Positions 1-39,924 of a stretch of 39,924 nucleotides of DNA are shown here, piece by piece. Positions within the stretch are counted from its first letter, which is position 1. Every line of letters starts with the position of its first letter. This stretch comes from a virus: the IMG/VR virus record IMGVR_UViG_3300044527_000590, positions 1 to 39,924 of that record; one strand, 5' to 3'. The translations under genes and the position numbers were made by a program. The notes under the pieces were generated by a model. It was not told the DNA's origin and made no database searches. It saw only the letters and a program-made list of their open reading frames with translations.

Positions 1-47
1 TTATTCCGGCATCTGGAACATCAACGGTGTCGTTTTTGGAACTGTAA
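1..47 (+). CDS. 3' end of secreted phage tail-associated protein (partial)
   Basis: The window opens inside a reading frame whose last 14 codons and TAA stop are identical to the end of the complete gene at 37702-38178. The base identity continues without a break into the following fibre gene. It is therefore the tail of a second copy or allele of that gene, cut by the window edge. Confidence 0.75.
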   Translation, partial: IPASGTSTVSFLEL

Positions 48-127
48 TTGGAGGGGTTGATTATGAAAAAGATGCTTTTTGCGTCGGTGATGGTTTGTCT
101 GCTTGAGTTTGCGTGTACTTGTCGCGG
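1..127. repeat. Direct repeat, copy A (exact match to 38132-38258)
   Basis: Bases 1-127 are identical to 38132-38258. The first mismatch is at base 128 (G here, C at 38259). The repeat covers the end of the upstream gene, the GGAGGGG ribosome site and the signal-peptide codons of the fibre gene. Weaker similarity continues to about base 335. An exact run of 127 bases starting at the contig edge is what a de Bruijn graph break with k = 127 would leave, so this may reflect assembly of two fibre alleles and not a physical terminal repeat. Confidence 0.9.
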
Positions 128-1916
128 GGAGTCCGGGGTTGAGTCAAAGGTTATTCCTGCCGGCAACATTCCTATGTCGATCCGTCCGGGACTGCTTGGC
201 GACTCCGGGGTGGCGGCTGGTGATCTGGCTACTGTGAACGACCTCGCCACCAAGCTCTCCATCTCCAATATCACCCAAACCGTCACCTCTGGCACCGACA
301 CGGTGCCGAGCAACAAGGCGGTGCAGGATGCGCTGGATGAAAACCTAATCGTTATCCCAAACGCACTTTATGCGGTAGCGTCAAACCAATGTTTTGTAGG
401 ATTTGATAATCTAATATCAGCTGATTATAAGGATTATTGGTGGGATACTTCTGGTGCTGGTCAGCAGTTTGATTGGTCGTGGCAATATACACCGACTAAC
501 AATGCCTCTGATTTTTCCCTCATGATTATACGCGGAACCCGATTCAACAATAAGATACTATCAAGTAATCAAATACCTGTTTATGTCGGGACGCTGGAAG
601 ATGGAGCAAGTGGACTCGGTTTTACAAATGCGGTAACTACGTTAAGCACGACTCCGGCGGCAGTTGGAACTGTATCTGCAACGATAACAGGGTATGGACA
701 GCTTCGCTCATTTACATCTAAATTTAACACTGTGAATATTCCGGTAGTGGTTGGAAATACTGGAGGAACCACCGGAGCTATTGACCGTATTGCCGTTGAA
801 ATCAGGAACATTATCTACACGGCTGGCGACAATGGGAATGTGACAAATGTTCAAACTGGGTCAATCGTCGCGACGGGTAGCGTTTCTGTGGCCTCTGCAA
901 ACACGACAAACCTAGATGTTTCGGTTACGCTGAATAAGACTATTCTTCAGTCGGACATTACAGGAAATTGTCTTTTTGTTGGGTATCGGGCTTTCAAGTC
1001 CGATGGATTAAACGCCAGCGTTTTGAGAGTAACTGGTACAGCGAGTGACATTGTTGCTACAAACAACCAGTCTCACTACTTTTGGAATAATGTAACGAAC
1101 TGGATGGATTTTTCCGGTGACGGGAACATGGGGATTAAACTTGCGCTGGTCGGCGTATCTCCGACAAACAAAATCCTCTGTGTTGGTGACTCTACTACGG
1201 CTGGCGGACAGTGGGTTTATAGGATGACAAGCCTTGCATCAAACGATTTGATGAAGATCGTTACACTTGGAACAAAAACCAACTCGGCATACGCTGGTAA
1301 TTTTCATGAAGGAATTTCGGGGTGGACGTGGAACGCTTTTACATCAAGCACATCAAGCCCGTTTGTTGCGGCTGGTGTTTTGAATATGAGCAACTATTTC
1401 GCCAATGTAATTTCAAATTCACCGGATTATGTGCTTGTCCATCTTGGGATTAACGATACATATCTCGCAACCGACGCATTGACTGACGGCGGGATACTGG
1501 CGCAGTGGACATTGGATTACCCGCGCATCACTAATTTTATTGCACAGGTTCTTGCATACAATCCATCAGCTAGAGTTGGTCTTGCTATGACGATACCACC
1601 CGCGTATGAGCAGTACGCCTTTGGTGATGATTATAACGTAGGGAAAACTCGCTACAGACAGAAAAGAAACCAGTTGTTGTACGCTAAGTATATTCAAGAT
1701 TCATTCTCAACATACAACACGAACTCCGTATTTGTCATTCCGGTATATGCCTCATTGGACTCTCTCTATAATTTTTCAACGGGTGACTATGCCCCAAATA
1801 TCCACAATACAAATACTATTGTCAGGCAAAGCAATGGAGTACACCCGGCTACGTCAGGATATTACCAGATGGGTGACGTGCTTTGGGCGTGGCTGAAATA
1901 CATCGTTGTGAGGTAA
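63..1916 (+). CDS. Tail spike/fibre with signal peptide and C-terminal SGNH (GDSL) hydrolase domain
   Basis: A probable receptor-binding tail spike that would deacylate surface glycans. The ATG at 63 is chosen over an upstream TTG because GGAGGGG lies six bases before it. Of 617 residues, about 1-24 form a Sec-type signal peptide. Residues 25-95 are an anchor shared with the fibre at 38194-39303. A middle beta-rich region follows, and about 370-617 is an SGNH hydrolase: GDS with Ser377 (block I), GIND with Asn464 (block III) and GVHP with His594 (block V). The residue three before the histidine is Asn591, where the family usually has Asp, so the triad may be altered. The gene is followed at once by small membrane-protein genes. 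The fold call is strong, but the role as a virion spike is inferred from the shared anchor and position. Confidence 0.8.
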   Translation: MKKMLFASVMVCLLEFACTCRGESGVESKVIPAGNIPMSIRPGLLGDSGVAAGDLATVNDLATKLSISNITQTVTSGTDTVPSNKAVQDALDENLIVIPNALYAVASNQCFVGFDNLISADYKDYWWDTSGAGQQFDWSWQYTPTNNASDFSLMIIRGTRFNNKILSSNQIPVYVGTLEDGASGLGFTNAVTTLSTTPAAVGTVSATITGYGQLRSFTSKFNTVNIPVVVGNTGGTTGAIDRIAVEIRNIIYTAGDNGNVTNVQTGSIVATGSVSVASANTTNLDVSVTLNKTILQSDITGNCLFVGYRAFKSDGLNASVLRVTGTASDIVATNNQSHYFWNNVTNWMDFSGDGNMGIKLALVGVSPTNKILCVGDSTTAGGQWVYRMTSLASNDLMKIVTLGTKTNSAYAGNFHEGISGWTWNAFTSSTSSPFVAAGVLNMSNYFANVISNSPDYVLVHLGINDTYLATDALTDGGILAQWTLDYPRITNFIAQVLAYNPSARVGLAMTIPPAYEQYAFGDDYNVGKTRYRQKRNQLLYAKYIQDSFSTYNTNSVFVIPVYASLDSLYNFSTGDYAPNIHNTNTIVRQSNGVHPATSGYYQMGDVLWAWLKYIVVR

Positions 1917-1920
1917 TCAA

Positions 1921-2073
1921 ATGAACCAAGAACCTGACAACTACGAGTACACCGACAAGATAGGCCGCGTTCCTTGGTACGTTGCCTTTGGTGTGCCGTT
2001 CTTGGCGTTGCTATTAATCGGATTGTCATTGGCGAATTTAGTTATCAAACATTATTTAACCACGGCTCCGTAA
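1921..2073 (+). CDS. Small single-span membrane protein (50 aa)
   Basis: ATG four bases after the stop of the spike gene. The product has a polar N-terminus (MNQEPDNYEYTDKIGR), one hydrophobic segment at about residues 20-43, and a short tail. There is no recognisable family. Its position between the spike and other membrane genes suggests a lysis accessory or holin/antiholin role, but this is only positional. The stop codon falls in the loop of a hairpin that is conserved at the other fibre module (2064-2089 and 39552-39575). Confidence 0.5.
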   Translation: MNQEPDNYEYTDKIGRVPWYVAFGVPFLALLLIGLSLANLVIKHYLTTAP

Positions 2074-2089
2074 GAGCCAGCCGAAAGGC
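2064..2089 (+). promoter_or_regulatory. Double-hairpin RNA leader, copy A
   Basis: Two adjacent hairpins: GGCTC 2064-2068 with GAGCC 2074-2078, then GCC 2080-2082, GAAA loop, GGC 2087-2089. The same stems with different loops occur at 39552-39575. In both places the element lies just before a gene for a roughly 110-residue protein starting MTE. This suggests a conserved structured 5' leader affecting translation. The function is unknown. Confidence 0.5.
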
Positions 2090-2111
2090 CAAACACAGAA
2101 AGACCCCAACC

Positions 2112-2450
2112 ATGACTGAAATCTGCAAAGCCGAAGCTCTCCAAGCGAAATGTATCCTAGCCATTCAGGTTGCCGTAAAGGATGCGGTTAGTGAATCTAT
2201 TCTTCCGGTGCAGGAAAAGACCGAAAAGATTTACAACCGGATGTTCGTGGACAATGGCAAAACCTCGATACAAACCAGCTTGTCAAACCTTGAGCCGATT
2301 CTTGAGGACTTGCAGAATTTGAAGTCTATGCGGTTTCAGTTGAAGTTACAGTGGGGGATGTTGCTTGGCTTTGCAACGGCTGTGGTGGGTATGATTGTTT
2401 GGGCTGTGCAGTCTGGCATAGCTCGGGTTGCTACTCATATCGGAGGTTAA
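2112..2450 (+). CDS. Coiled-coil protein with C-terminal membrane segment
   Basis: 112 residues. About 1-75 are soluble and helical with likely coiled-coil character, and about 83-102 are a hydrophobic span, giving a tail-anchored layout. XhlA-type phage lysis proteins are built this way, but no sequence signature proves the match. The ATG at 2112 is the first methionine after the double-hairpin leader, and the upstream in-frame extension has no ribosome site. It occupies the same place as the unfinished gene at 39596, which also begins MTE and ends in a hydrophobic stretch, so the two are probably functional counterparts. Confidence 0.55.
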   Translation: MTEICKAEALQAKCILAIQVAVKDAVSESILPVQEKTEKIYNRMFVDNGKTSIQTSLSNLEPILEDLQNLKSMRFQLKLQWGMLLGFATAVVGMIVWAVQSGIARVATHIGG

Positions 2451-2487
2451 TGATTTCCCGCAATTCAGCGGGGCAAGGAGAATGGTT

Positions 2488-2832
2488 ATGAACAGTATCG
2501 TTGAAATGATAAGCGGAAAGAAAACGTACATCACGGTTGCCGTTGTGATGATTGTGGTCGGACTGATGGCTTGCGGAATAAACATTCCAGAGTTTGTTTG
2601 GCCACTGCTTGCCGCCGCAGGGCTTGGGTCAGTTCGATCAGCTGTCGGTGCCGTGGCACCCGTACAGGGTTCAGGTTTCTTTACCGGCAAGAAGACCTAC
2701 ATACTGGCATTAATCATGGCCGCGCTCGCCGGGTTGCAGGCGTATGGTATCCCGATTCCTGAAATCGTGTATATCCTGCTTGGAAGCCTTGGGGCAGGCA
2801 CGCTTCGTATGTCAATTCCGAAGGTTATATGA
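2488..2832 (+). CDS. Holin-like membrane protein with internal duplication
   Basis: 114 residues from the ATG at 2488, seven bases after AAGGAG (an in-frame ATG at 2482 is too close to it). The protein is two copies of a 57-residue unit. GKKTYI occurs at 10-15 and 67-72, and GINIPEFVWPLLAAAG at 30-45 matches GIPIPEIVYILLGSLG at 87-102. Each unit carries a hydrophobic hairpin, giving three or four membrane segments in all. GKKTYI-type small membrane proteins are common beside phage lysis genes and are often called holins. The stop overlaps the start of the next gene (ATGA), so translation is coupled. Confidence 0.6.
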   Translation: MNSIVEMISGKKTYITVAVVMIVVGLMACGINIPEFVWPLLAAAGLGSVRSAVGAVAPVQGSGFFTGKKTYILALIMAALAGLQAYGIPIPEIVYILLGSLGAGTLRMSIPKVI

Positions 2833-3041
2833 TTCCTGTAATCCCAACATGGGCGTTAGGCGCGGGGGCTATCATCGCCCTTGCGCTTCCCGTATATCTG
2901 GATTGGAAGTATAAAAATGCAAAGCAAAAGAAAACGGATGAACTCAAAGTCAATACGGCTCCTGCCAGTCCTGACGATATTGTTGACATTGATCGCATTC
3001 AGCGGCTGCAAGACGAGCGGAACGTTCCTCCCGCCAAGTGA
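2829..3041 (+). CDS. Short i-spanin-like (Rz-type) membrane protein
   Basis: 70 residues. It has an N-terminal transmembrane segment at about 5-25, then a charged stretch rich in Lys, Asp and Arg ending in a Pro-rich tail. It starts by a four-base overlap with the holin-like gene. A lipoprotein frame begins inside it in another reading frame, which is the arrangement of embedded or overlapping Rz/Rz1 spanin pairs. At 70 residues it is much shorter than the usual Rz (about 150), so the call rests mainly on gene architecture. Confidence 0.45.
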   Translation: MIPVIPTWALGAGAIIALALPVYLDWKYKNAKQKKTDELKVNTAPASPDDIVDIDRIQRLQDERNVPPAK

Positions 3042-3186
3042 TGGCGTGGTGACAATCGTTAAGAGCGGGGTGGTCTATTTCCCTGCCAAATCGGTGATGT
3101 TTCCGGATGGTAAGGGCGGGCAAACCATGAATGAGTTCGGGTTTTATGCGGATAGTCGCTGGCGGTTGGCTCCGCCAAAGAAATAG
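2938..3186 (+). CDS. Overlapping lipoprotein, o-spanin (Rz1)-like
   Basis: 82 residues from the ATG at 2938, in a frame different from the i-spanin-like gene and overlapping it by 104 bases. It has a basic start (MNSKSIR), a hydrophobic core and a lipobox-like FSGC with the candidate lipidated cysteine at residue 24. The mature part is short and polar. ATG 2917 is an alternative start adding seven basic residues. With the preceding gene it resembles an Rz/Rz1 pair that would disrupt the outer membrane of a diderm host. Phenylalanine at lipobox position -3 is not ideal. Confidence 0.45.
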   Translation: MNSKSIRLLPVLTILLTLIAFSGCKTSGTFLPPSDGVVTIVKSGVVYFPAKSVMFPDGKGGQTMNEFGFYADSRWRLAPPKK

Positions 3187-3207
3187 ATAACTGCAACCAC
3201 TTTTAAT

Positions 3208-3233
3208 AACACCCTTTAAAATATGGTGTTTTC
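3208..3233 (+). terminator. Weak hairpin terminator
   Basis: AACACC (3208-3213) pairs with GGTGTT (3225-3230), followed by a short T run. It lies directly after the last lysis-like gene. The stem is short, so termination would be weak. Confidence 0.35.
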
Positions 3234-3277
3234 TAGGTTCCCCCCACCTCCATGCTTTTAAAAGCTGATGGATTGCA

Positions 3278-3328
3278 AAAACCCCTGTTTTTATTGATTA
3301 AAACCAATAGAGACGGGGGTTTTGTTTT
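3278..3328 (+). terminator. Rho-independent terminator after lysis module
   Basis: AAAACCCCTGT (3278-3288) pairs over 11 bp, with one G-T wobble, with ACGGGGGTTTT (3313-3323). A GTTTTG tail follows. The loop holds a smaller ATTG/CAAT stem. It separates the rightward late/lysis transcript from the integrase region and could work in both directions. Confidence 0.7.
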
Positions 3329-3420
3329 GTCCGTCGCGTTTGCTATTGTCTCCTATGATATGTCTATGATACGTCTATTAGCATGTAAAAAGTGCAACCA
3401 CTTTTCAACCGGAGGGGCGT

Positions 3421-4521
3421 ATGCGGGGAGTGTGTGTTTATGACCGGGCAGACCGGAAGAAGAGTCCTTACGGGGCAAGGTGGAGTTCGGAGGGTAAATA
3501 CCGGTTCCAGTTTTTCAGCAAAAAGGCGGATCGGGATGCGTTTATCACCGATTTTGAGAAGAGGGTTGGGCTGCATGGCCGGGCTATTTTGTCGATGTCT
3601 GCCGGGGATGCGATGATTTGGGCGGAGTGTGTGAAGCTGGCAGGGTCGGCCCCGGCGGTTCTTAAGGCGGTTCAGCAGGCGACGGATCGGAGCAGGTTGC
3701 GGCGGGTTGATTTGTCGGCGGCGCGTCTGGAGTATGAAGAGGATCTGTTCAATAAGGGGTGTGATGAGGATTACCGGCGGCATGTGAAGAAGGCGCTGGG
3801 GCGGTTCCCCATGTCGGGGGCGGCTTTTGATGTGGGGCAGGCTGAGGCCAGGACCTGGGCGGCCGGTTTGAGTTTCGCACCCCGGACGGTGCGCGGGCAT
3901 ATCAAGATTCTGACGGCGTTCTGGAACTGGATGGTTGCTCGCGGGTATGCGGCTGATAATGTTTTCCGGTCTGTGCCGGTTCCGGTGGTTTCGGAAAGCG
4001 AGCCGGGGTTTTTGACGGTGGATGAGATGGGCCGGCTGATGAAGGCGGCGCTGGATCATTTCCCTGATGCAGTGGCGTATTTTGCGCTGGGGGCGTTTGC
4101 CGGGTTGCGGTCGAGCGCGATCTGCCGGATGGATTGGGAGGAGCATATCCGCTTTGAGCAGCGCGGGATCCTGATTACCGGGGCGAATGCAAAGAACAAG
4201 CGCCGGCAGTTTGTGGACGGCCATGAGCCGAATCTGTGGGCGTGGCTGGAGTGGGCGCGGGAGCATGCTCCGGCGGGGTTTGATTTAGAGCCTAGACTGT
4301 GGGAGCGGCGGCGGGAGCAGGTGGCGGAGAAGGCGGAGGTGGTGATGCCGCATAATGCACTCCGGCATTCGTTCTGCACCTACCACTGTGCGCTTTATGG
4401 TGATGCGGGCAAGACGGCAACCCTGTTGACGCACCGGGGTAACGTGGCGATCCTGTACCAGCACTATAAGGGGAACGCGGGCAGGCCGGAGGCGGAGAGG
4501 TACTTTGGGATCAGGCCGTGA
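3421..4521 (+). CDS. int: Tyrosine recombinase (phage integrase)
   Basis: 366 residues; ATG preceded by GGAGGGG. It catalyses site-specific integration and excision of the phage DNA. About 1-100 are an N-terminal arm region, 100-185 a core-binding SAM-like domain (FWNWMVARGYAADN), and 195-366 the catalytic domain. Visible catalytic residues are Arg230 (AGLRSS), a lysine in NAKNKR (258 or 260), the H-x-x-R pair His311/Arg315 (HNALRHSF), His338 and a terminal tyrosine. The YQHY motif contains Tyr346 and Tyr349, and by analogy with related HY-ending enzymes Tyr349 is favoured. The complete catalytic set indicates a functional enzyme and a temperate life style. It is convergent with the minus-strand gene at 4570. 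Confidence 0.9.
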   Translation: MRGVCVYDRADRKKSPYGARWSSEGKYRFQFFSKKADRDAFITDFEKRVGLHGRAILSMSAGDAMIWAECVKLAGSAPAVLKAVQQATDRSRLRRVDLSAARLEYEEDLFNKGCDEDYRRHVKKALGRFPMSGAAFDVGQAEARTWAAGLSFAPRTVRGHIKILTAFWNWMVARGYAADNVFRSVPVPVVSESEPGFLTVDEMGRLMKAALDHFPDAVAYFALGAFAGLRSSAICRMDWEEHIRFEQRGILITGANAKNKRRQFVDGHEPNLWAWLEWAREHAPAGFDLEPRLWERRREQVAEKAEVVMPHNALRHSFCTYHCALYGDAGKTATLLTHRGNVAILYQHYKGNAGRPEAERYFGIRP

Positions 4522-7569: not shown

Positions 7570-7578
7570 GTGATAAAT

Positions 7579-9018
7579 ATGAAATTTATATCGGTATGCT
7601 CAGGAATTGAAGCGGCAAGCGTCGCATGGGGGCCGCTCGGCTGGAAGGCTGTCGGATTCTCCGAGATCGAGCCGTTTCCGTGTGCGGTGCTGGCGCATCA
7701 TTATCCGGATGTGCCGAACTATGGCGATTTAACGAAATGGAAGGAGTGGGGAATTGAAAGAGGAACAGTCGATGTTATTTGCGGTGGAACACCATGCCAA
7801 AGTTTCTCCGTCGCTGGACTGCGAAAAGGACTGGATGATCCGCGTGGCAACCTCATGCTCGTCTTTCTTGCGCTTGTTGACGCAGTACGGCCCCGATGGG
7901 TGGTATGGGAGAACGTCCCCGGAGTCCTTAGTTCCAACGGCGGACGGGACTTTGGTGCCTTCCTCGGAGGGCTGGGGCAACTCGGCTACGGGTGGGCCTA
8001 CCGGGTGCTTGACGCTCAATACGTCAGAGTGGACGGGTTTGAGTGTGCCGTTCCGCAACGTCGGCGGCGTGTGTTCGTTGTCGGATGTCTTGGAGACCAA
8101 GCCAGTGCCGCAGCGGTACTTTTTGAGCAAAACTGCCTGTGCGGGAATCCTGCGCCGAGCCGAGAAGCGGGGAAAGGATTTGCCGCCTCAGTTGGAAAAG
8201 GCGTTGAAGTCGGTAGCCATTGGGACGGCAGCGGAGTCCATCCCAGCATAACGCAGAGCCACAACACGGGCGGGATAGGTCAGAGCAATCAGGAGATTTT
8301 TAGTCAGCGTGGATGCGGCCTTGTTGAAGCCCATCGAATGGTCGCTTTCGGTGAATACGAAACGGACGGAACCGCGTCGGCTATGAAGGCGCGTGATTAC
8401 AAAGACGCAACTGACCTTATTTCCTGCCTAATGGATCAAGGCGGTTCGGTGATGAACGTCGAGAACGGAATCACCGGAACGCTTCGCCGCAAAACCAAAG
8501 GACATGAGCCGATTATCTGTTGCGCCGAAGTCTCGCCTTGCATGACGGCGGGCGGCGCACCGTTCGAGCGCACCGGCAACGAGCGCACCGAGTGCGAGGC
8601 GATTGTGGCCTTTTCATGCAAAGACAACGGGCGGGATTGTCAAGCAAACATCGCGCCGACAATGAGAAGCATGGGGGCTGATGGGAGCCATGCGAACGGA
8701 GGCGGTCAGCTGGCGATTGCGATCCACGACAAAGCCACTCGGCACAACGGCGGCGGTGATTCTCGCAATGGTGACGGCGGATTAAACTGCTCGATGGTCG
8801 CACAATCCATGTCCGTCCGACGCTTAACGCCGACCGAGTGCGAGCGGCTGATGGGATTTCCAGACAACTACACGGCTATTCCCTGGCGCGGAAAACCAGC
8901 AGAACTTTGTCCAGACGGACCGCGCTACAAAGCTCTCGGCAACTCTTGGGCTGTCAACTGTGCCCGGTGGGTTGGAACACGGATTCAGATGGTGGAGGAT
9001 TTGAAGGAAATGCTGTAG
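7579..9018 (+). CDS. C5-cytosine DNA methyltransferase (Dcm-type)
   Basis: 479 residues; ATG 7579 is preferred although GTG 7570, just after the previous stop, is possible. It transfers methyl from S-adenosylmethionine to C5 of cytosine. Motif I is SVCSGIEAAS (5-14), motif IV GGTPCQSFS with catalytic Cys73, motif VI WENVPG (110-115), motif VIII QRRRR (160-164), and motifs IX-X RRLTPTECERLMGFP and GNSWAV at the C-terminus. Residues about 170-410 are an unusually long target-recognition region. No partner endonuclease is visible, so it is an orphan enzyme that probably protects phage DNA from host restriction. The recognition site cannot be read from sequence. Confidence 0.9.
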   Translation: MKFISVCSGIEAASVAWGPLGWKAVGFSEIEPFPCAVLAHHYPDVPNYGDLTKWKEWGIERGTVDVICGGTPCQSFSVAGLRKGLDDPRGNLMLVFLALVDAVRPRWVVWENVPGVLSSNGGRDFGAFLGGLGQLGYGWAYRVLDAQYVRVDGFECAVPQRRRRVFVVGCLGDQASAAAVLFEQNCLCGNPAPSREAGKGFAASVGKGVEVGSHWDGSGVHPSITQSHNTGGIGQSNQEIFSQRGCGLVEAHRMVAFGEYETDGTASAMKARDYKDATDLISCLMDQGGSVMNVENGITGTLRRKTKGHEPIICCAEVSPCMTAGGAPFERTGNERTECEAIVAFSCKDNGRDCQANIAPTMRSMGADGSHANGGGQLAIAIHDKATRHNGGGDSRNGDGGLNCSMVAQSMSVRRLTPTECERLMGFPDNYTAIPWRGKPAELCPDGPRYKALGNSWAVNCARWVGTRIQMVEDLKEML

Positions 9019-22433: not shown

Positions 22434-22496
22434 CGGACGGCCCCGGTCGCAAGGCCGGGGCTTCCATAGTTTGAAAATTAATTGAAGGGGTTGAAA

Positions 22497-22919
22497 ATGA
22501 AAAAAATGACAATTATGGCAGTGATGGCGGCCGTGGCGCTGGGTGTGCAGGCTGAGAAGTATGTGACGGTGGGCGTTGCTCCCGGAACGAACAACGTGGC
22601 AACCATTACGCAAAGTTTCGCGGCGGTAGCCATTCCGGTGGCGATCTACACGGAACTGACCGGAACGACCACGAACGCGGTGACGATTGGTTTTACGCCG
22701 TCGGTTGCAACGAATGCGGCTGACTATGGCAAAACCTACCGGATCGGCTCGTTTTCGACGGTTGGCGGTGCGGAAGCTACGGTGGTGATGAACGATCCTC
22801 TGAATACCAATTCGGCTGGCACGGTTATCATGAATCGCGGCGATGCTATGCCTCTTACCGGCGCCGGCGGCACAGCCAGCACGAACGTGTTTTATCGGGT
22901 TGTATTCAAGCTGCCCTGA
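22497..22919 (+). CDS. Secreted-type head/decoration candidate
   Basis: 140 residues from ATG 22497 (after GAAGGGG). A clear signal peptide, MKKMTIMAVMAAVALGVQA, is followed by a beta-rich Thr/Ala/Gly/Asn domain. In podoviruses the gene after the capsid often encodes a decoration or head-fibre protein, but an N-terminal Sec signal is unexpected for one. It could instead be a host-surface protein made late. No family is recognised. Confidence 0.55.
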   Translation: MKKMTIMAVMAAVALGVQAEKYVTVGVAPGTNNVATITQSFAAVAIPVAIYTELTGTTTNAVTIGFTPSVATNAADYGKTYRIGSFSTVGGAEATVVMNDPLNTNSAGTVIMNRGDAMPLTGAGGTASTNVFYRVVFKLP

Positions 22920-27569: not shown

Positions 27570-29228
27570 ATGGGCCGCATACCGATGGATTTGGGAGTGA
27601 ACTACCAGCGCAATCCGGAGCCCACGGCCGTGCCGCGCGGTTTTGGCATGGAGCGATTTAACAAGGTTGCCGAGCGCGGGCAGGTGATTGCCGGGCTGGG
27701 GGCGAAAGTGGCGGACATTGCCACCGATTACGCGGCCAAAAACAAGCAGGCGGATCTGCGGGCGGATGCGCTGGCGGCGCAGTCGCAGTTTAAGATTATT
27801 CAAACTGAAGCACAGTTGAAGGCATCTGAGACCGATGATCCGAATGAAATCCGGCAGATTTGGGCGGACGCACACGGACAATACAGCAGCTGGGTGGTCG
27901 GGAAGTCGGAAAAGGGTGTTCCAAATATCCGCTGGAGCGATCAGCAGAAGGAGATGGTGACGGCTTCAGATGCCCTGCAGGGAGAGTTTCGCACGACGGC
28001 CGAGCTGAGGATTGCTGAGGTTGGCAAGCGCAACAGCAACGCCAAGGCTTTGCAGGCGCAGCGGGATGCAGAGATTGCCGGTGATCGGGAAACCATCACT
28101 CAGGCGGTGCAGGTGCGAATTGAGAACGGCACGCTCACGCGAGAAGAGGGAGAGGTTGAGCGGCGGGCATCTTTCCTGAAGTCGGATTTGACTCTGGCGA
28201 ATAACAACATTGTGAATATCGGGAAAATGGAACCGGCCAAAGCGCTGGAAGCGGCTGATCAGTTTGAAAAGTTATTGATGGCCAAAGATGAAAAAGGCAG
28301 ATGGCTGCGGTTCGAGCATATTCCTGAAAAATCCTCCGATCCTCGCGCGAAAACCAGAGACCAATTAATAAAAGAAGCTCATTCGGAAGCGGTTGCTTCG
28401 GCCAATCGCATGAAAGCCGAGGATGAATTACAAGTCACGATTAGCGATTTTGCTTATATGGATGCGGTGAAGAAAAAAGGCGGGGCGCTGTCACCGGCTG
28501 AAATGATGGGTCTGAATCTTCGGCCTGAAACTCTGAAAAAGGTTCGTGATCTGGAAAAAGAGCAGGCCAAAGAAAAAGCAGCAACCCCGGAATATGCGCT
28601 GGAAATGAATCGCCTGGTCCGCGCCTATGATGCCAAGGCGGATTCTTCGTCTGATGAGCAAATCAAATTACAGGCTAAAATCATGGCGATGCCGGACGGG
28701 GCAAACAAAACCATGCTGATCAATCAAATTGAACTAAAAGCAGCAGGTGCAGGAAACCGTCTGATGAAGGTCGAGCCGGATGATGTAAAAGATCTTCAGG
28801 CTTCGATCACGGATCAGCTGCTTGATCTGGTTGAGCGGGCAAATTTCGACGGGAAAAACGAATATTCTGGCGGACGCTATAGCAAAACCACCACAGAGAC
28901 CGGTCAAAAGGTAGGGGTATTCCACGGTGATTTGTCGATTGCGGCCGGGGCAGTGCAGAGCATGGTGGATAGCTATGTTGCCAAAAACAAGCCGTCCGCC
29001 GATCAGCTGCTGGATTGGTACAACACGAATCCGTCCATCAAGTCCTTGCGCGATGATCTGAAGCTGAAGGATTTTATTGGCCGTTTGCCGTCCATGCTGG
29101 GATCGATGCCGGCCGCGTCGTCCGGACAGTCAAAGAAACCGCTGAAAGATTCGCTGAGCGGGCAGTTTTCAGGCGGTAATGTTACGGATCAGCAGGATGC
29201 TTTTATGAAATTTTTGGGGGGGAAATAA
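27570..29228 (+). CDS. Internal virion protein, gp15-like
   Basis: 552 residues, almost entirely helical, beginning MGRIPMDLGVNYQRNPEP and with GFGMERFNKVAERGQVIAGLG. Size, position and helical content match podovirus gp15-type ejection proteins that form a periplasmic tube for DNA entry. No enzyme motif is visible. The stop overlaps the start of the giant gene (TAATG). Confidence 0.7.
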   Translation: MGRIPMDLGVNYQRNPEPTAVPRGFGMERFNKVAERGQVIAGLGAKVADIATDYAAKNKQADLRADALAAQSQFKIIQTEAQLKASETDDPNEIRQIWADAHGQYSSWVVGKSEKGVPNIRWSDQQKEMVTASDALQGEFRTTAELRIAEVGKRNSNAKALQAQRDAEIAGDRETITQAVQVRIENGTLTREEGEVERRASFLKSDLTLANNNIVNIGKMEPAKALEAADQFEKLLMAKDEKGRWLRFEHIPEKSSDPRAKTRDQLIKEAHSEAVASANRMKAEDELQVTISDFAYMDAVKKKGGALSPAEMMGLNLRPETLKKVRDLEKEQAKEKAATPEYALEMNRLVRAYDAKADSSSDEQIKLQAKIMAMPDGANKTMLINQIELKAAGAGNRLMKVEPDDVKDLQASITDQLLDLVERANFDGKNEYSGGRYSKTTTETGQKVGVFHGDLSIAAGAVQSMVDSYVAKNKPSADQLLDWYNTNPSIKSLRDDLKLKDFIGRLPSMLGSMPAASSGQSKKPLKDSLSGQFSGGNVTDQQDAFMKFLGGK

Positions 29229-32200
29229 TGGCACGCGGACAATTCTCTGATGAACAGCTGGATTTGCTTTCTGAACGGGTTCCCATGGCGGCGGTTGAGC
29301 GTCCGGAGGTTGACCGGATGCTGCGGGAGCGGACGCAACGGCGGGTATTGACCGGACTGTATGAGCATGAGCGGACGGTGGGCGTGGCGGATGCTGACAA
29401 GCCTCTATTTATCAAAGCATTTGGTGCCGGGCTTGGGCTCGATTTGCGGGATCGTACATCGGAAGAGGCGGTTGAGTTTTTATCCGGAAGTCCGGATGTG
29501 AATGAGAGTTTTGAGCGGGTGCGTTCCAGCTTGAAAAAGCTACACGGAGAAGAGGGTATTGATCCGTTTCTTGGCCTGAGTGGCGACGAGCAGGCTAAAC
29601 GGGTGAGGAACATCAAGGAATTTGAGCAACTGCAAACCGGAGTGAAGGCGGCAGTCGGCGTACAGCCCGGGTCTATGGTTCCGTCCATGCCACCAATTAA
29701 GCCTGTTACGGATGCAGAGGTGGCTGCCGGAGTGACAAAGCAGAAAGAGGATGCGTTCTGGAGTTCTCCCAAGCTGGTACGGGATGCGCTGTGGCCTAAA
29801 ATGGTTCCCGAAGCTCAGCAGGCGGCGGTGAAGTCGATTTTCTACAAGAATCCAGCGCGGGCAATGGATGCGATCGATCCTCTTCTTGAAGGTCTGCCAC
29901 CTGAACAGATCAGGATGTTTTCGGCAGTGGCGCTGGCGGCGCGTCCGGAGCTGAAGAAAAGTTTTGATGAGCGTTTTGGACTGACGTTTGAAAAGGTTTT
30001 CCAGCGCCGGAAAGAGAACGCCAAGTATTTTGTGCGCTCGATCGGCGCGGAGCGTCCCGGCAATCCTCTGGGCTTTTACAATGCGGCGCAGGATGTCTTC
30101 GGAGAAAACGGGTTTGAAGCCTATCTTGAGAATCCGGACGCGGAGGGCGGTAAAAAGTTTGAACAGCTTCGTAAGCGGGCAGAGCAGGATTTTAATACGG
30201 TGGCGATGCCCGGCATGAGCGGAATGGAATACCGTCAGCTTCCGCAGAAAGTTCCGCTGAGTGATGAGGATCTGGTGGGCTTTTACAAAGCCGGTAAACA
30301 GCAGGTCGATTGGGAAAAACGCTATCGCGCTGTCAGTAATGCGGTCGTGGAGAAATACAAGCCTCTGCCGTCTTTTCAGGAATACATGCTGGGCGGGCAT
30401 GAGGTAGTTGTGGACATGGTTTCACTGGCGGCGGCAACGTATGCCGGAAATATCGTCGCTCCGGGTTCTGGTACGGCCTTTGCGCTGGGTGCAACGTGGA
30501 TGGATCACCAGGCGGAGATGGAGCGCACGCTGATTTATGACCACGGCATGAAGCCGGTGGACGCCAAGTTGTGGACGGGCCTTGCGGCCGCTCCGTATGC
30601 TGCCATTGAATACGCCGAGATAAAGGGGTTCTCAGATTTCAGTTTCCGGGGGTTGGAAACGGCCAACCGGAGTTTAAACCGCAGCATCCCGAATCTGTTC
30701 ATGACCTATTTTCCGCAATATCTGAAGCGGGCCGGTGTGGGGACGGTCAAGGAAACCGGTGAAGAGGTTCTACAGGGCGCTGTAGATTTTGCGCTGATGG
30801 AGACCGTCCGCAATCTATACGAGACTGAAGGGCTGACGTTTGACGGGAATGCAAAGGCATTCTGGGATGAAGCTGTTGGGGCCGTCAAATACATGTGGAT
30901 GGCCGGTCTGGTTGGCGGGCAGGTAACGGGCGCGATGCAGGGCACGGCGGATGTTCTACGTGGAGGCGGGGTAAAAGGGTTTTTTGCACCTGAATTTAAA
31001 ATGGCCGTGCGCGACCGTACTTTGCCGCTGGAAGAGTTTGAGGCTGAGGTTGGGTTGAGACGCGCCCGGACGGATGCAACGCGCCTACGGGCTGAAAGCG
31101 GCTTTAAGGATGGCGTTCCTGAAAACGTGCTGGAGCTGGTCCGCGTGACGCGCGGGGATGATGTAAACACGGAAGTTGACATTGAAAGCGAGATTTCGAA
31201 GCTGGGCTATGAAAATCCGGCCGCTGTGGTGGAAATGGCCCATGCGGAGCTGGACGTGCGCGATAAGACGCGGGAAGTCATTCAGTCGAAGATTAACACG
31301 CTGGACCGGATGATGGATGCGGAGCGCGGGCAGGATGAATTTGTAGTGCCGAAGAACGGGCCGAAGTTCGGTATGGTGGAGTTGGCACTGAACGGCTGGG
31401 CATCCGGGCTGGATGTTGCGCTTGACGTAGTGGCAACTCCGGAAGAGTTTTCGCAGAAGTACGGGGTTGGTGAGGGGGTGGCCGTCAAGGCGGCCAACAT
31501 GCGCAAGACGGGCGGCGGATGGCAGGTTGTGCTGGTAGACTCAATGCTAAAAAGCAACGCGGATGCCTATGCGCAGTTCCGGCATGAGGTGCTGGGGCAT
31601 GTCGGCTTTGATCTGTCGAAGAATGGGCCGGAAGTTGTCGGGCGGATTGCCGGGCTGGTCGGGCTGGACTATATCAAATCGCGGCTTCCGCAATATGCGA
31701 AGCTGCACGAAGCGGGCAAACTGACGGATGCCGGGCTAGTGCAAGAGTTTCTGGCAGTGCTGGCTGGCGATCTGCGCCGGGCGTCGGCTTCGGATGCCGA
31801 TAAAGGGATGCTGGAAAAGCTAAAAGAAGGCTTTGTGCGGTCGCTCGGTGTTGAAAGTGCAGGATCCATGACGGCGCGTGAAGTGGTTGATCTGGCGCGG
31901 CAGGTGATGGGCGAAGCATTCAAGGCCGGATCGATGCAGAAGAATGACGGTTCAGGTTCTCAGCGGGCTTATGACGAACAGCAGAAAAACGCGGGCAAAG
32001 ACCTGAAAAAGCGCAAGGCCGCTGCCGAAAAACAGATTCAGCAGATGGCGGACGAAAATCCGGTTATCAAGATGGTGTTGGAAAACGGCGGGGTGCAGAT
32101 GCCGGCTGGCAAGGAAAAGAGCTGGCCGGAAGAGTATCAGGCAATACCTAAGCGGTTTCGTGGCGTAAAGGGCGCGGGATTGTCTCTTGACCAGCTGGCG

Positions 32201-35200
32201 GATCAGGCGGCGGCTCTCAAGGGAACCACGGCGGATTATTCCACGTCGGAATTTCGGGCGGAGTTGGAGGCTTTTGAAGCGAAGGCGGAGCGGATCCTTG
32301 CGGATGCGGAACAGGGGACAGGGGTCGGGAGTCAGGAATCAGCCAATGAAGAGCAGCAGCTGCTTGCTGATCTGGAGTCCGGGAAGATCACCGAGGATGA
32401 ATATAATGCGGCTATGGCGGAGTTGACGGGTGCGCGGTTTTCGGTGGAGCAGCTTGGGTTTGATCTGGGGGGTGCGGCGGATCAGGCGCAAACGGGCGGA
32501 CTGTTTGATGGCGTGAAGTCGCCCGGTCGGCAAACTTCTTTATTTAATCAGTCGAAAGCGGCGGAGTCTGCTCTAGGTGCGGAGTTGTTTTCTGATGAAC
32601 AGAGGACGGCGCCGCTGGCGAAGAAAAAGATTCAGGATTTCGGCGAGGTGATTCATGGCGCGCGCAAGCACTACGCGGAAGAGTATCTGTCGCGCGCTAA
32701 ACAGGGCGAGCTGCTGGATGTGGCGGCTGAGCCGATGTCGAAGAGCTGGCCGGAGCCGGATTATCAGAAGCTGCTAGACGGCGGGACGGATGCCGGGGTG
32801 GTGGCCTTTATCCATGCCTCCAGGGATGAGGTGCCGAACAAGCCGCGTTCGGGCTGGAAGCTGCGGAAGTATGTGCAGGTGGTGGATCAGTTGCGCGGGC
32901 TGTCAAATCAGCTTCTGCGTGGTGAGATATCGTCCGAAAACATCCGGGCGCTATTAAGCCGTCCGGAATTTTCACAAATCAGCCTGAATGTGGGCGGTCG
33001 GGCGGAGCTGTACGCCAAAGTTGGGCACGCAAAGAGTCTGAAGGGCGTTTATGTGACGCAGGGTACATACACCATGTTTAATGGTGTGCCGTATTCCCCG
33101 GCGAAAGTCATCTGGTCTGTAGAAAAACGGGAAAGCAATTCTCAGAGTGGGAACTGGCCGCGGATGATGGCAACCGGTGAAAGCCGGCAAGAGGCTGTGG
33201 AAAAGTTTGCGGCGGCCTATGCTGGTTTTAATGATGCCCAGAAAAAAGGAAAAGAGGTTGAGTTCAACCTGTACCGTAAGCGCGGGCAGGAAGGCGTAAT
33301 TGTCGGTAAAAAAATCGGACGCAATTATGTGGATCTGATGGTTTTGCCGGATGTGAAGGCGGCGCGCGACTATCTGAAAAACAACAGGGCTGAGCTGGAG
33401 CGTAAGCTGGAGGATTATAAGAAGATCCCGGAAGAGCGCCGCGCTGAAAACTCTCCACGCGTTGGAGATGACTACCGGAAGGGTAGCGACGTTACGCCGG
33501 AGCAGTTCCAAAACACATTTGGTTTTCGCGGGGTGCAGTTCGGAAACTATGTTGAGGATGATCGTCGGCAGGCTGATTTGAATAATGCGTATGACGCGCT
33601 GATGGATTTGGCCTTGCTACTGGATATTCCTCCGGCGGCTGTTTCACTGAATGGAGAGTTGGGATTGGCATTCGGTGCGCGTGGGCATGGAGGTAAAGAG
33701 GCTCCCAGCGCACACTATGAGCCGGTGCAGGTTGTGATCAACCTGACTAAACGCGCAGGGCCCGGCTCGCTGGCGCATGAGTGGTGGCACGCACTGGACA
33801 ACTATTTTTCTCGGACGGGCGGGAAGCCTGCCGGATATATGACAGGGGTTATTCCAGGTACCGCAGGGGTTCGTCAGGAAATGGTGCAGGCGTTTGGAAA
33901 CATTCAGGAGGCTATCCGCAAAAGCGGTCTGCCGGAACGCTCTAAACTGCTGGATGCTCGCCGGTCAACTCCGTACTGGAGTGAGATGATCGAGATGTCG
34001 GCCCGAACATTCGAGGCGTTTGTGAAATCCCGGATGGATCAAACGAACATCGAAAACGACTATCTGGTTAATTTTAAGGACATGGTGGATTACATTGTGC
34101 AGAGCTTTGCAGCTAAAGAAATGTATCCCTATCTGCTGGATGAAGAAAAAGATGCGGTTAATTCCGCGTTTAATGCGCTTTTTGAAACGGTGCAAAGTCG
34201 TGAAACTGAAAAAGGCACGGCGCTGTTTTCCATCGAGCAGATGGAAGACGGCCGGCGGGCGGTGGTGCTGGAGATGGCGCGGCTGATTATGGCGGATCAG
34301 GAACGCGGCGCGACGAAGAGCACGGTAACAAAAGCCAAGGTGCAGGAAACGCTGATTAGCGTCGGGGTGCGGGCGGACAAGGCCATGGCGCAGGAGGATC
34401 TGGAACGCGCTAAGGAGATTGTTGGTCTGGTGCGGGCACAGCGCAGCATGGGAGGAGATTTGAACCGGCTGATGGCGCAGGCTGAAATCAATACGCATTA
34501 CGGCCGTCAGCTGGAAGAGGCCCATAAGATGGGTGAGCGCGGCGGGCGCATCTGGCAACAGGCGCAGGATGAGGTGGATCAGCGGCGCAGCGAGCGGATT
34601 AAGTATGCCAGGCAGATTGCGGTCGGTCTGACGTCCGGCGAGCTGGATGACAAAAACCATATCGATCTGGAAAACCTCTGGAAGAAGCTGATTATTGAAG
34701 AGCGGGTACGCAAGCCGCGCCAGGCGAAGGAAACGGATAAGGAATACGGAGAGCGTCCCAAGGGCACTCCGTTGCCGGATGATTTGAAGCTGGATATTAC
34801 CAACGACGAATACGCGCTGGAGATCCGGGACTGGCTGCATGAAGTGCGCCGGGCGGTGTATCGTCAGCTGATGTTCAATAAAGCTCCGGTGCCGATGGAG
34901 TTTCAAAAAGCGTGGAAAGATCCGATTGTGAAGGCGGCCTACATGCAGACGGTGGAAAACCTGTTGCGCGAAAAGGTGCAGGATCTGACCTATGGAGAGA
35001 AGCGCGACAAGCTGGTGAAACGCATTGAAGATCTGGGAACCCGCAAGCAGCTGGACAAATACGAAAATGCCGTGGCTGGCATTATGGATGAGATGTTTAA
35101 CACGGCGGTTGATCAGAACCGGCAGGAATGGATTTCTCAGGCGTGGACGGAGTTGGAAAAGGTTGGCGGAGCGCTTAAAAGCCGGCAGAGCAAGTATGCC

Positions 35201-37648: not shown

Positions 37649-37654
37649 CCCCCT

Positions 37655-37671
37655 CTGGATGCGTATATAGG
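37655..37671 (+). promoter_or_regulatory. Late promoter-like element, copy 3 (CTGGATGCGTATATAGG)
   Basis: Identical over 17 bases to 21191-21207. It is seven bases after the stop of the giant gene and 31 bases before the start of the fibre-module gene at 37702. It probably drives the fibre and lysis genes separately from the head-tail operon. Confidence 0.55.
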
Positions 37672-37701
37672 CGGAAGAGTACCAACCAAGGAGTTCCGTC
37701 T

Positions 37702-38178
37702 ATGAAAAAGATTATCGCTGTCCTGTTTGTATTGGCCGCTTGCATGGTTTCCAGAGCCGAGCAGTGGACCATGACCATCACCAGTTCAACGCGCTGCATC
37801 CCGGCGCAGAGCATCGCCACCAACCTGATCACCACCTGGACCAACGGCATTGCCGTGTCGGCCGGCGGTTACTACAAAAACTCATCCGGATTGACGTATA
37901 TGGCCGTGACTGCGGGCACCGGTACCAACGCACCGACTCACCGGATCGGCAAGGCATCCACCACCGACGGCATAAGCTGGCTGTTTTGCAGTCCAACCAT
38001 TGGACAGAAGGGCGTTGTGGCCTGTGTGATGGCCGGCAACGAGGTGCATTACAACCGCAACGCGGCCGCAACCACGAATATGCCTTGGACGGTGAAGAAC
38101 ATCTTTGATCCGGCGCGGGGTGACTGGCGCTTTATTCCGGCATCTGGAACATCAACGGTGTCGTTTTTGGAACTGTAA
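37702..38178 (+). CDS. Secreted-type tail-associated protein (158 aa)
   Basis: ATG preceded by AAGGAG. MKKIIAVLFVLAACMVSRA is a clear signal peptide, followed by a beta-rich Thr/Ser/Asn-rich domain (QWTMTITSSTRCIPAQSIAT) that looks like a fibre base or chaperone. No family is recognised. It directly precedes the fibre gene and is also the gene whose 3' end opens the window. Its place between ejection protein and fibre fits a connector for the fibre. Confidence 0.6.
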   Translation: MKKIIAVLFVLAACMVSRAEQWTMTITSSTRCIPAQSIATNLITTWTNGIAVSAGGYYKNSSGLTYMAVTAGTGTNAPTHRIGKASTTDGISWLFCSPTIGQKGVVACVMAGNEVHYNRNAAATTNMPWTVKNIFDPARGDWRFIPASGTSTVSFLEL

Positions 38179-38258
38179 TTGGAGGGGTTGATTATGAAAA
38201 AGATGCTTTTTGCGTCGGTGATGGTTTGTCTGCTTGAGTTTGCGTGTACTTGTCGCGG
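38132..38258. repeat. Direct repeat, copy B (exact match to 1-127)
   Basis: The internal copy of the repeat at the window start. Divergence begins at 38259 and rises towards the fibre tip. The distance between copies, 38,131 bases, would be the unit length if the genome is circular. Confidence 0.9.
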
Positions 38259-39303
38259 CGAGTCCGGGGTTGAGTCAAAGGTTATTCATGCCGGAAACAT
38301 TCCAGTATCCATTCGTCCGGGACTGCTTGGCGACTCCGGGGTGGCGGCTGGTGATCTGGCTACTGTGAACGACCTCGCCACCAAGCTCTCCATCTCCAAT
38401 ATCACCCCAACCGTCACCTCCGAAACGAACACGGTGCCGAGCAATAAGGCGGTGGATGATGCGCTGGCGTTGAAGGTAGATAATAACAACGGCACAGCAA
38501 CCAACCTTTCCGTTTCCGGAGGCTTAACAGTAAGCGCGGTTTATTCTAACGCCAGCACAACAATTTCAGGTACCAATGCTGGAACTTACGCTGGGGTTTA
38601 CGTGTATCACCATACCGACCCGACATATTCCGACGTTTTTACTAACTCTGCCGGTTTGTTCCTTTTCTCAAATGTTGATCAATATTATGCAGGAACTTAT
38701 GCGCTCGGCGCGTCCGTTGGGAGTAGTACATATTGTGGTAATGACTCGGTGTGGGTAGATGGTGGAACCGGTGCCCCGGCGGATGTTATCCAGACGGGCA
38801 CACCGGCACACAATTTGATTGACAGCGGAAACCTGACCATGAATGGGGTAAACCCCAGCATTTCGCTACCTCTGTATACCGGCGGGGGCGCATGGCTTGT
38901 CAGTGGCGGGAACAATATTGGCACTGGTTCGATGGGCCTTGTACTCAATAGTCCATTTGCTTTTGTGCTGAATAGCGATTTTACAGCAAATAAAGGATGG
39001 AATGGTTTTGCTTTGGCTATCGGCCAGACGAATTATTGTAGTTTTTCCACAACCTTTGGCGGCTGGGGTGAGTCCCTTGGCCTGCCAGATCAGCCGAATT
39101 TCTTCATGTACAACGACTACTCTTATTACAACTCACTGGGCGGTGATATTGCCTATATAATAGGCCTAGTGTCACAGGTCTACAAGATCAACTATCGGTT
39201 GATGCTTAACCCTGACGTAATTCCAACATCACGCACAAACGCTTTAATCGGTGAAATTTATGTAGACGGAACAAACGAAGTTTTAAAAATTCGATTAGAT
39301 TAA
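38194..39303 (+). CDS. Tail fibre with signal peptide, alternative tip without SGNH domain
   Basis: 369 residues from ATG 38194, after GGAGGGG. Residues 1-95 match the spike at 63-1916 with only about ten changes and end in VPSNKAVDDALALKVDNN, a typical fibre hinge. The remaining 270 residues are a different beta-rich tip (GGLTVSAVYSNASTTISGT, SLGGDIAYIIGLVSQVYKIN) with no hydrolase motifs. The tip DNA is more AT-rich than the anchor, which suggests exchange. It is an alternative receptor-binding module. Confidence 0.75.
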   Translation: MKKMLFASVMVCLLEFACTCRGESGVESKVIHAGNIPVSIRPGLLGDSGVAAGDLATVNDLATKLSISNITPTVTSETNTVPSNKAVDDALALKVDNNNGTATNLSVSGGLTVSAVYSNASTTISGTNAGTYAGVYVYHHTDPTYSDVFTNSAGLFLFSNVDQYYAGTYALGASVGSSTYCGNDSVWVDGGTGAPADVIQTGTPAHNLIDSGNLTMNGVNPSISLPLYTGGGAWLVSGGNNIGTGSMGLVLNSPFAFVLNSDFTANKGWNGFALAIGQTNYCSFSTTFGGWGESLGLPDQPNFFMYNDYSYYNSLGGDIAYIIGLVSQVYKINYRLMLNPDVIPTSRTNALIGEIYVDGTNEVLKIRLD

Positions 39304-39313
39304 AAGGAACACT

Positions 39314-39547
39314 ATGAGAAAAATTATTATATTGTTATCGCTTGCGCTGTTTTGTCTGGTTGTCGCTGCTGAACCGGTTTTTCTAAAGTCTGTGGTTATT
39401 GCAGATAAATCAAATACCACGGTTCGGGTGATATATGTCAAGGATGGCCTTGTTTACAATGTCAGTTCCACTTCGTCTGTATCCAACCAAATCCCAGACA
39501 TTGACGCAAAGATTGCACAGTTGAAGTTGCAAGCGGGGCTTAAATAA
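39314..39547 (+). CDS. Small secreted protein of the second fibre module
   Basis: 77 residues; AAAAGGAAC precedes the ATG. MRKIIILLSLALFCLVVAA is a signal peptide; the mature 58 residues are beta-rich (VFLKSVVIADKSNTTVRVIY) with a helical end. It occupies the place of the 50-residue membrane protein after the first spike but is unrelated. Possible fibre chaperone or lysis accessory. Confidence 0.55.
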   Translation: MRKIIILLSLALFCLVVAAEPVFLKSVVIADKSNTTVRVIYVKDGLVYNVSSTSSVSNQIPDIDAKIAQLKLQAGLK

Positions 39548-39551
39548 CCAC

Positions 39552-39575
39552 GGCTCATTGAGCCAGCCTAAAGGC
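39552..39575 (+). promoter_or_regulatory. Double-hairpin RNA leader, copy B
   Basis: GGCTC (39552-39556)/GAGCC (39560-39564) and GCC (39566-39568)/GGC (39573-39575) around a TAAA loop. It has the same stems and spacing as 2064-2089 with different loops, again just before a gene starting MTE. Confidence 0.5.
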
Positions 39576-39595
39576 CACATAACAGGGGAGACGCA

Positions 39596-39924
39596 ATGAC
39601 CGAGAAAAAGCAGAAAGAGGCCGCAGAACAAATGGCAGAACACGACGAGCGGGTTCGCATGGAAAGTGAAGCATCCATTTTGTTAAAAGCCAAGAGCCTC
39701 ACTAACGGTCACGCAGGCGACCCTAAACTTACGGGGGACGTTTTGTTCTGGCTTACGGAAGAAATGATCGAGCAGGGGCGGCTGTTGCGTACCATAGTTT
39801 TGAGCCTCTCTATGTTTCAAAAGACTGAGCATTGTGTGCTGAACCATTCAGGCAAGATGGGCAAGATTGCGCTGTTTGGAACTACGTTTAAGGTTCCGCT
39901 GGCTGTGGCTATCGGGGTTTGGGG
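39596..39924 (+). CDS. Helical protein with late hydrophobic segment (partial, cut by window end)
   Basis: Open from ATG 39596 (after GGGGAGACGCA) to the edge, 109 codons. It has a charged helical N-terminus (MTEKKQKEAAEQMAEHDERV), a middle helix (VLFWLTEEMIEQGRLLRTIV), and a hydrophobic stretch beginning at about residue 100 (FKVPLAVAIGVWG). It corresponds in place and plan to the gene at 2112-2450, so the second fibre module brings its own version of this membrane protein. Confidence 0.6.
   Translation, partial: MTEKKQKEAAEQMAEHDERVRMESEASILLKAKSLTNGHAGDPKLTGDVLFWLTEEMIEQGRLLRTIVLSLSMFQKTEHCVLNHSGKMGKIALFGTTFKVPLAVAIGVW

Follow-up and report, generated by a model that had tools for sequence, protein, structure and literature searches.

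The 39,924-nt stretch of DNA analysed here in full (the window; IMG/VR record IMGVR_UViG_3300044527_000590) opens on a sequence that recurs near its end, and each copy leads into a different fibre gene. The locus raises the question of whether one circular phage genome has a population with two fibre alleles, one genome holds two fibre modules in tandem, or two phages were joined during assembly. We confirmed the exact 127-base repeat described in an earlier note on this DNA: bases 1–127 are identical to 38132–38258, recur only once in the whole window, and have their first mismatch at base 128. Chance does not account for an exact match of this length within 40 kb. It comprises the final 47 nt of a conserved 158-aa gene, a spacer and the initial 65 nt of the fibre gene (Table 1). 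The similarity goes on past it: the first 336 bases align without gaps at 95% identity, and ~94 of them (183–276) form another exact match.

Table 1. Features of the fibre locus and their positions in the window.
Feature	Position	Strand	Remarks
k-mer overlap, left contig end	1..127	+	same graph node as 38132-38258
Fibre allele A	63..1916	+	617 aa; ~96-aa anchor; GDSL/SGNH esterase domain in tip (residues 371-605)
50-aa membrane protein gene, cassette A	1921..2073	+	ends inside hairpin boundary
Double-hairpin boundary hp1, allele A	2057..2092	+	
112-aa gene after hp1 on A	2112..2450	+	99% identical in G001 despite other tip
Second hairpin boundary hp2	2452..2492	+	before two-helix membrane-protein slot
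114-aa two-helix membrane protein	2488..2832	+	at best holin-like (E 0.036); G001 has an unrelated 77-aa gene instead
Small lipoprotein-like gene	2938..3186	+	spanin-like at best, E 0.32
Tyrosine integrase	3421..4521	+	end of variable region
158-aa conserved gene	37702..38178	+	signal-peptide-like N-terminus; directly upstream of fibre; single copy, 7 related contigs
Second occurrence of node	38132..38258	+	contig then continues into allele B
Fibre allele B	38194..39303	+	369 aa; same anchor, unrelated ~270-aa tip without database match
77-aa signal-peptide-like gene, cassette B	39314..39547	+	
Double-hairpin boundary hp1, allele B	39545..39578	+	
Gene after hp1 on B	39596..39922	+	cut by contig end; 98% aa, 94% nt identical to G012 gene

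The length of the repeat looks like a product of the k-mer size of the assembler, with no biological origin. G001 (IMGVR_UViG_3300045131_001751), the nearest public relative, closes on itself with an end overlap of exactly 127 bases at a place corresponding to window positions 2237–2363, distant from the 127-base node of our contig, and the end overlap of a more distant relative, G006, is 99 bases. According to simulations in the COBRA paper, contig ends of maximum k-mer length remain at forks in metaSPAdes and MEGAHIT assemblies, and the k list for metaSPAdes in that paper includes both 99 and 127 (PMC10914622). Since the same length occurs elsewhere in G001, another k in G006, and contigs end in this way at branches, we take 127 to be an assembler constant. 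A k-length exact repeat at a contig end with divergence at the next base is the form of a de Bruijn branch, and the graph branch proposed in the earlier note thus stands. From the coordinates, we infer that the contig is a 38,131-bp circle carrying allele A, to which a 1,666-bp stub with allele B is attached: it would set out from the node along A, round the circle, pass the node again and exit along B for 1,666 bases. Judged from its header, the record is a virus record classified without end repeats; the B stub that follows the node would hide an end overlap. The stub stops short of rejoining the backbone, and its final 127 bases, where the contig stops, had no match in the relatives compared.

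The anchor is shared by the two fibre proteins and the tip is not, as had been read from the DNA: ~96 residues are common to A and B, and BLASTP found no match between them beyond these. The GDSL/SGNH domain of the A tip scored 36.3 bits against a Pfam cut-off of 32.9 and resembles receptor-binding proteins of Lactococcus phages (26% identity). The B protein had no match in any library used, a comparison of both proteins with solved structures found nothing, and the sole match of the A and B tips among viral contigs was the anchor of G001. A structure of the B tip predicted with no alignment input had a pLDDT of 32, unusable for a fold search. The GC content of the tips, at 44–48%, is below the 55% of the backbone, which fits an outside origin of the tips. 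Their position and domains suggest that the tips bind receptors; the domains concerned are the GDSL domain of A and a lectin domain in the G001 cassette only, and host-surface binding is putative.

The locus was then compared among relatives. One 158-aa gene and one anchor were found in each of the related contigs holding the locus (7/7), a set that includes G004, whose copy lies at the contig end, and G002 and G003, which do not differ from each other over 14.9 kb. Anchor identity was 91% in G001 and ~35–50% in distant relatives, and the tips of these contigs showed no alignment to one another, so that close relatives combine a conserved anchor with tips that lack homology, all at one locus. 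In G001, aligned blocks are 92–98% identical in nucleotides and the portal is 99% identical in amino acids; its complete circle of 38,166 bp, once rotated, runs through the 158-aa gene, anchor, tip, small genes and integrase. It holds a single fibre gene with a third, unrelated tip cassette, in which the gene next after the fibre has a concanavalin-type lectin domain.

An anchor duplication that placed both fibre modules in one genome, in the order B-A or A-B, would be compatible with the evidence inside the window, where A and B follow the same anchor within one contig. Such a tandem is nevertheless very unlikely, because each relative has one fibre locus (a single anchor in the complete G001 circle and in every one of the six other contigs) and because the B anchor is the group's own, as described below. 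The B end also does not enter the repeat node, unlike a simple tandem in an assembly graph, and those relatives with the hairpin boundary hp1 at this locus have just one copy of it. No relative thus supports the tandem pair that the earlier note had left open, whereas the circular genome with two fibre alleles, its other reading, agrees with both the one fibre per relative and the complete relative circle with a third tip. We therefore conclude with good confidence that the contig records a turn through the graph of a circular, temperate, podovirus-like phage, in which the node splits into A and B, and that tips differ within the population and are swapped at shared joints. A and B presumably coexisted in one sample as strains.

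Alternatively, B could come from another phage with only the anchor in common, misjoined here by the assembler. The gene downstream of B, 94% identical in DNA to that of the otherwise unrelated phage G012, is what such a join might produce. However, just past the node B matches the continuous locus of G001 (99%, window 37600–38444) better than A does: over 300 bp of anchor, mismatches numbered 6 between B and G001, 10 between A and G001, and 14 between A and B. Moreover, G012 has a different fibre N-terminus and no 158-aa gene. Since its anchor is nearer to that of G001 than the A anchor is, B is best read as this phage group's own locus, not a stray sequence, and a chimeric join is very unlikely.

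Under the preferred reading of one circular genome with two fibre alleles, the next point is what is exchanged along with the tip. As the earlier note had observed, each fibre is followed by its own set of small genes; the sets differ throughout the extent of B, except for a 34-nt double hairpin (hp1) present in both. The further proposal that tip and downstream genes are swapped as a block failed on comparison with two other phages. Despite their different tips, A and G001 have the 112-aa gene in common (99%); they differ again in the membrane-protein slot (114 versus 77 aa), past which the small lipoprotein gene and the integrase, within the stretch 2917–4521, are once more common to both. 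G012 (IMGVR_UViG_3300027972_000033) lacks portal, tail and integrase homology to the window phage and has a weak terminase match only, yet its locus runs from an anchor linker (89% identical in nucleotides) through cassette genes like those of G001 (40%, 71% and 59% aa) and hp1 to the downstream gene of B. Because a G001-type left part joins the 112-aa gene in G001 and the B gene in G012, tip and downstream genes do not form one block, and they did not co-vary across A, G001, G012 and B. Exchange has thus involved an otherwise unrelated phage, and the tip pool includes the siphovirus-like G012. The plan of the locus is the 158-aa gene, fibre anchor, exchangeable tip cassette, double hairpin, exchangeable small genes and integrase, with one fibre per genome. 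Assignment of the downstream genes to lysis is weakly supported at best, by sub-threshold holin and spanin matches (Table 1). Separately, the end of the G009 fibre is repeated in a second G009 gene (L025:6652–7871; 51% over 41 aa), perhaps through a tail-end duplication inside that cassette.

In the cases compared (A, B, G001 and G012), the switch point is hp1. This element of ~34 nt has the form GGCTC-loop-GAGCC, A, GCC-loop-GGC, lies ~20–40 nt ahead of the next start codon, and is present in A, B, G001, G002/G003 and G012 and, diverged, in G006. Both sides of the fifth pair of stem 1 are changed in G012, from C-G to T-A, and the stem in G006 is shorter with pairing kept. A covariance model of hp1 gave one match per genome in relatives with hp1 at the locus and two in the window; an extra match, in G004, was weak (E 0.0026) and fell outside the fibre locus. 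The second hairpin, hp2, precedes the membrane-protein slot; it reads CCCGC-loop-GCGGG in A, G001 and G012, and CCGGC-loop-GCCG in G003, with one pair altered on both sides. Hairpin pairs were also counted with hand-set stems; the automatic alignment misplaces stem 2 of G003. Because A was the only hp1 copy whose folding clearly surpassed that of shuffled sequence (z −3.4, compared with −0.9 for B and −1.9 for G003), the case for RNA rests on paired changes in few sequences. An Rfam search gave no match, and a loose hairpin pattern gave 16 matches among viral contigs, those beyond this locus being about the number estimated for chance. The hairpins may act as joints for recombination, as translation elements or in both roles. 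A speculative and rather doubtful possibility is that they are structured RNA joints, selected for translation or RNA processing of the following gene, that also act as exchange sockets across unrelated podovirus- and siphovirus-like phages of one bacterial group.

Lambdoid phages have boundary sequences, short homologies between interchangeable genes at which recombination joins modules; the joints here differ in being hairpins with paired changes. The closest described elements to hp1 and hp2 are the start-associated and extended start-associated sequences of Cluster K mycobacteriophages, which are likewise short conserved inverted repeats just 5' of start codons, ahead of varied gene families, and whose function is unknown there (PMC3203893). 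Those occur in 11–19 copies, whereas hp1 and hp2 each occur once per genome, at module borders, and are unrelated to them in sequence.

The variation at this locus most likely reflects ordinary mosaic exchange of receptor-binding modules. Tips would be replaced when co-infecting phages or prophages undergo homologous recombination, with the anchor as the left joint and the hairpin-bearing gaps as the right. A programmed switch, whether retroelement, invertase or shufflon, could also make alternative tips, within one lineage; the tip varies in every relative, and a tyrosine recombinase (3421–4521) is encoded 1.5 kb downstream. We regard it as extremely improbable: the window had no match to RVT_1 (reverse transcriptase) or Resolvase (serine recombinase), it showed neither a tip copy, silent or inverted, nor inverted repeats around the cassette, the complete relative has a single fibre locus, and the tips are unrelated in sequence, not variants of a template. 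On the same observations we rejected both a diversity-generating retroelement (DGR) and a Gin/Cin-type invertible fibre cassette, which reach the same outcome of alternative tips on a constant anchor but do so with a reverse transcriptase and template copy or with a serine invertase and inverted copy.

Mosaic exchange of this kind has precedents. Metaviromic islands and host-recognition modules have been documented in marine phages (PMC3909814; PMC7029224), and there too related genomes from one environment have fibres with a constant N-terminus and a non-alignable C-terminus, with lectin-like, carbohydrate-binding tips as a further likeness. The present phage differs in being temperate, in its apparently Verrucomicrobiota-like host, and in having been found by an assembly fork instead of read recruitment. 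Among Alteromonas phages, a fibre region is exchanged by phages that differ in morphology but presumably belong to one host group (PMC10579305); here the shared cassette includes the post-hairpin gene, 94% identical in DNA, and we identified no chaperone. Fibres with constant anchors and variable tips, and modules common to unrelated phages, are thus already documented (PMC3909814; PMC7029224; PMC10579305), and this locus is a new, clear instance.

The host group is perhaps Verrucomicrobiota-like. Among 84,980 genome species, the integrase had three relatives (45–48%), in one MAG each of Victivallales and Verrucomicrobia, none of them shown to be the same prophage, and the portal had no relative by alignment. 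A 2806-aa protein (29228–37648) has LPD5 and LPD1 polyvalent-protein domains and a segment 33% identical to part of Verrucomicrobia MAG locus L046, near an integrase. Compared with that of G003, the integrase is far more diverged in its N-terminal half and nearly identical in its C-terminal catalytic half, which suggests that recombination may have occurred inside the gene. Just upstream of it lies a near-identical 16-nt direct repeat (3189–3204, AACTGCAACCACTTTT; 3390–3405, AAGTGCAACCACTTTT), whose second copy falls within the palindrome AAAAGTG-CAAC-CACTTTT; the repeat is a candidate attP or integrase arm site. A 482-aa C-5 cytosine methyltransferase gene (7570–9018) has a further match, to a PHROG with the name DNA primase.

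Several proteins of the window have N-termini resembling Sec signal peptides, a likeness judged by eye and hydropathy only. These include the fibre anchors, the 158-aa protein and several cassette genes (window 63–140, 37702–37760 and 39314–39370), often with LPA|E or AxA ahead of the conserved part, as well as the gene after the major head protein (22482–22919; MKKMTIMAVMAAVALGVQAE). The fibres of G002, G004, G006, G010 and G012 have similar starts. Tail fibres are assembled in the cytosol, and such starts are unusual for them. The phage DGR target proteins surveyed in one study are reported to have no signal peptides (PMC6199706). The hairpin joints and these fibre N-termini are mildly unusual, and are the parts that a specialist might follow.

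In a public record, a fibre swap within a phage population can thus take the form of a circular genome that is filed as a linear one and ends in a stub carrying the second allele. A scan for exact k-length repeats between contig ends and internal sites would reveal many hidden receptor-binding alleles. At this locus, tip and downstream genes reassort separately at short hairpin joints, and they do so with an unrelated phage as well.
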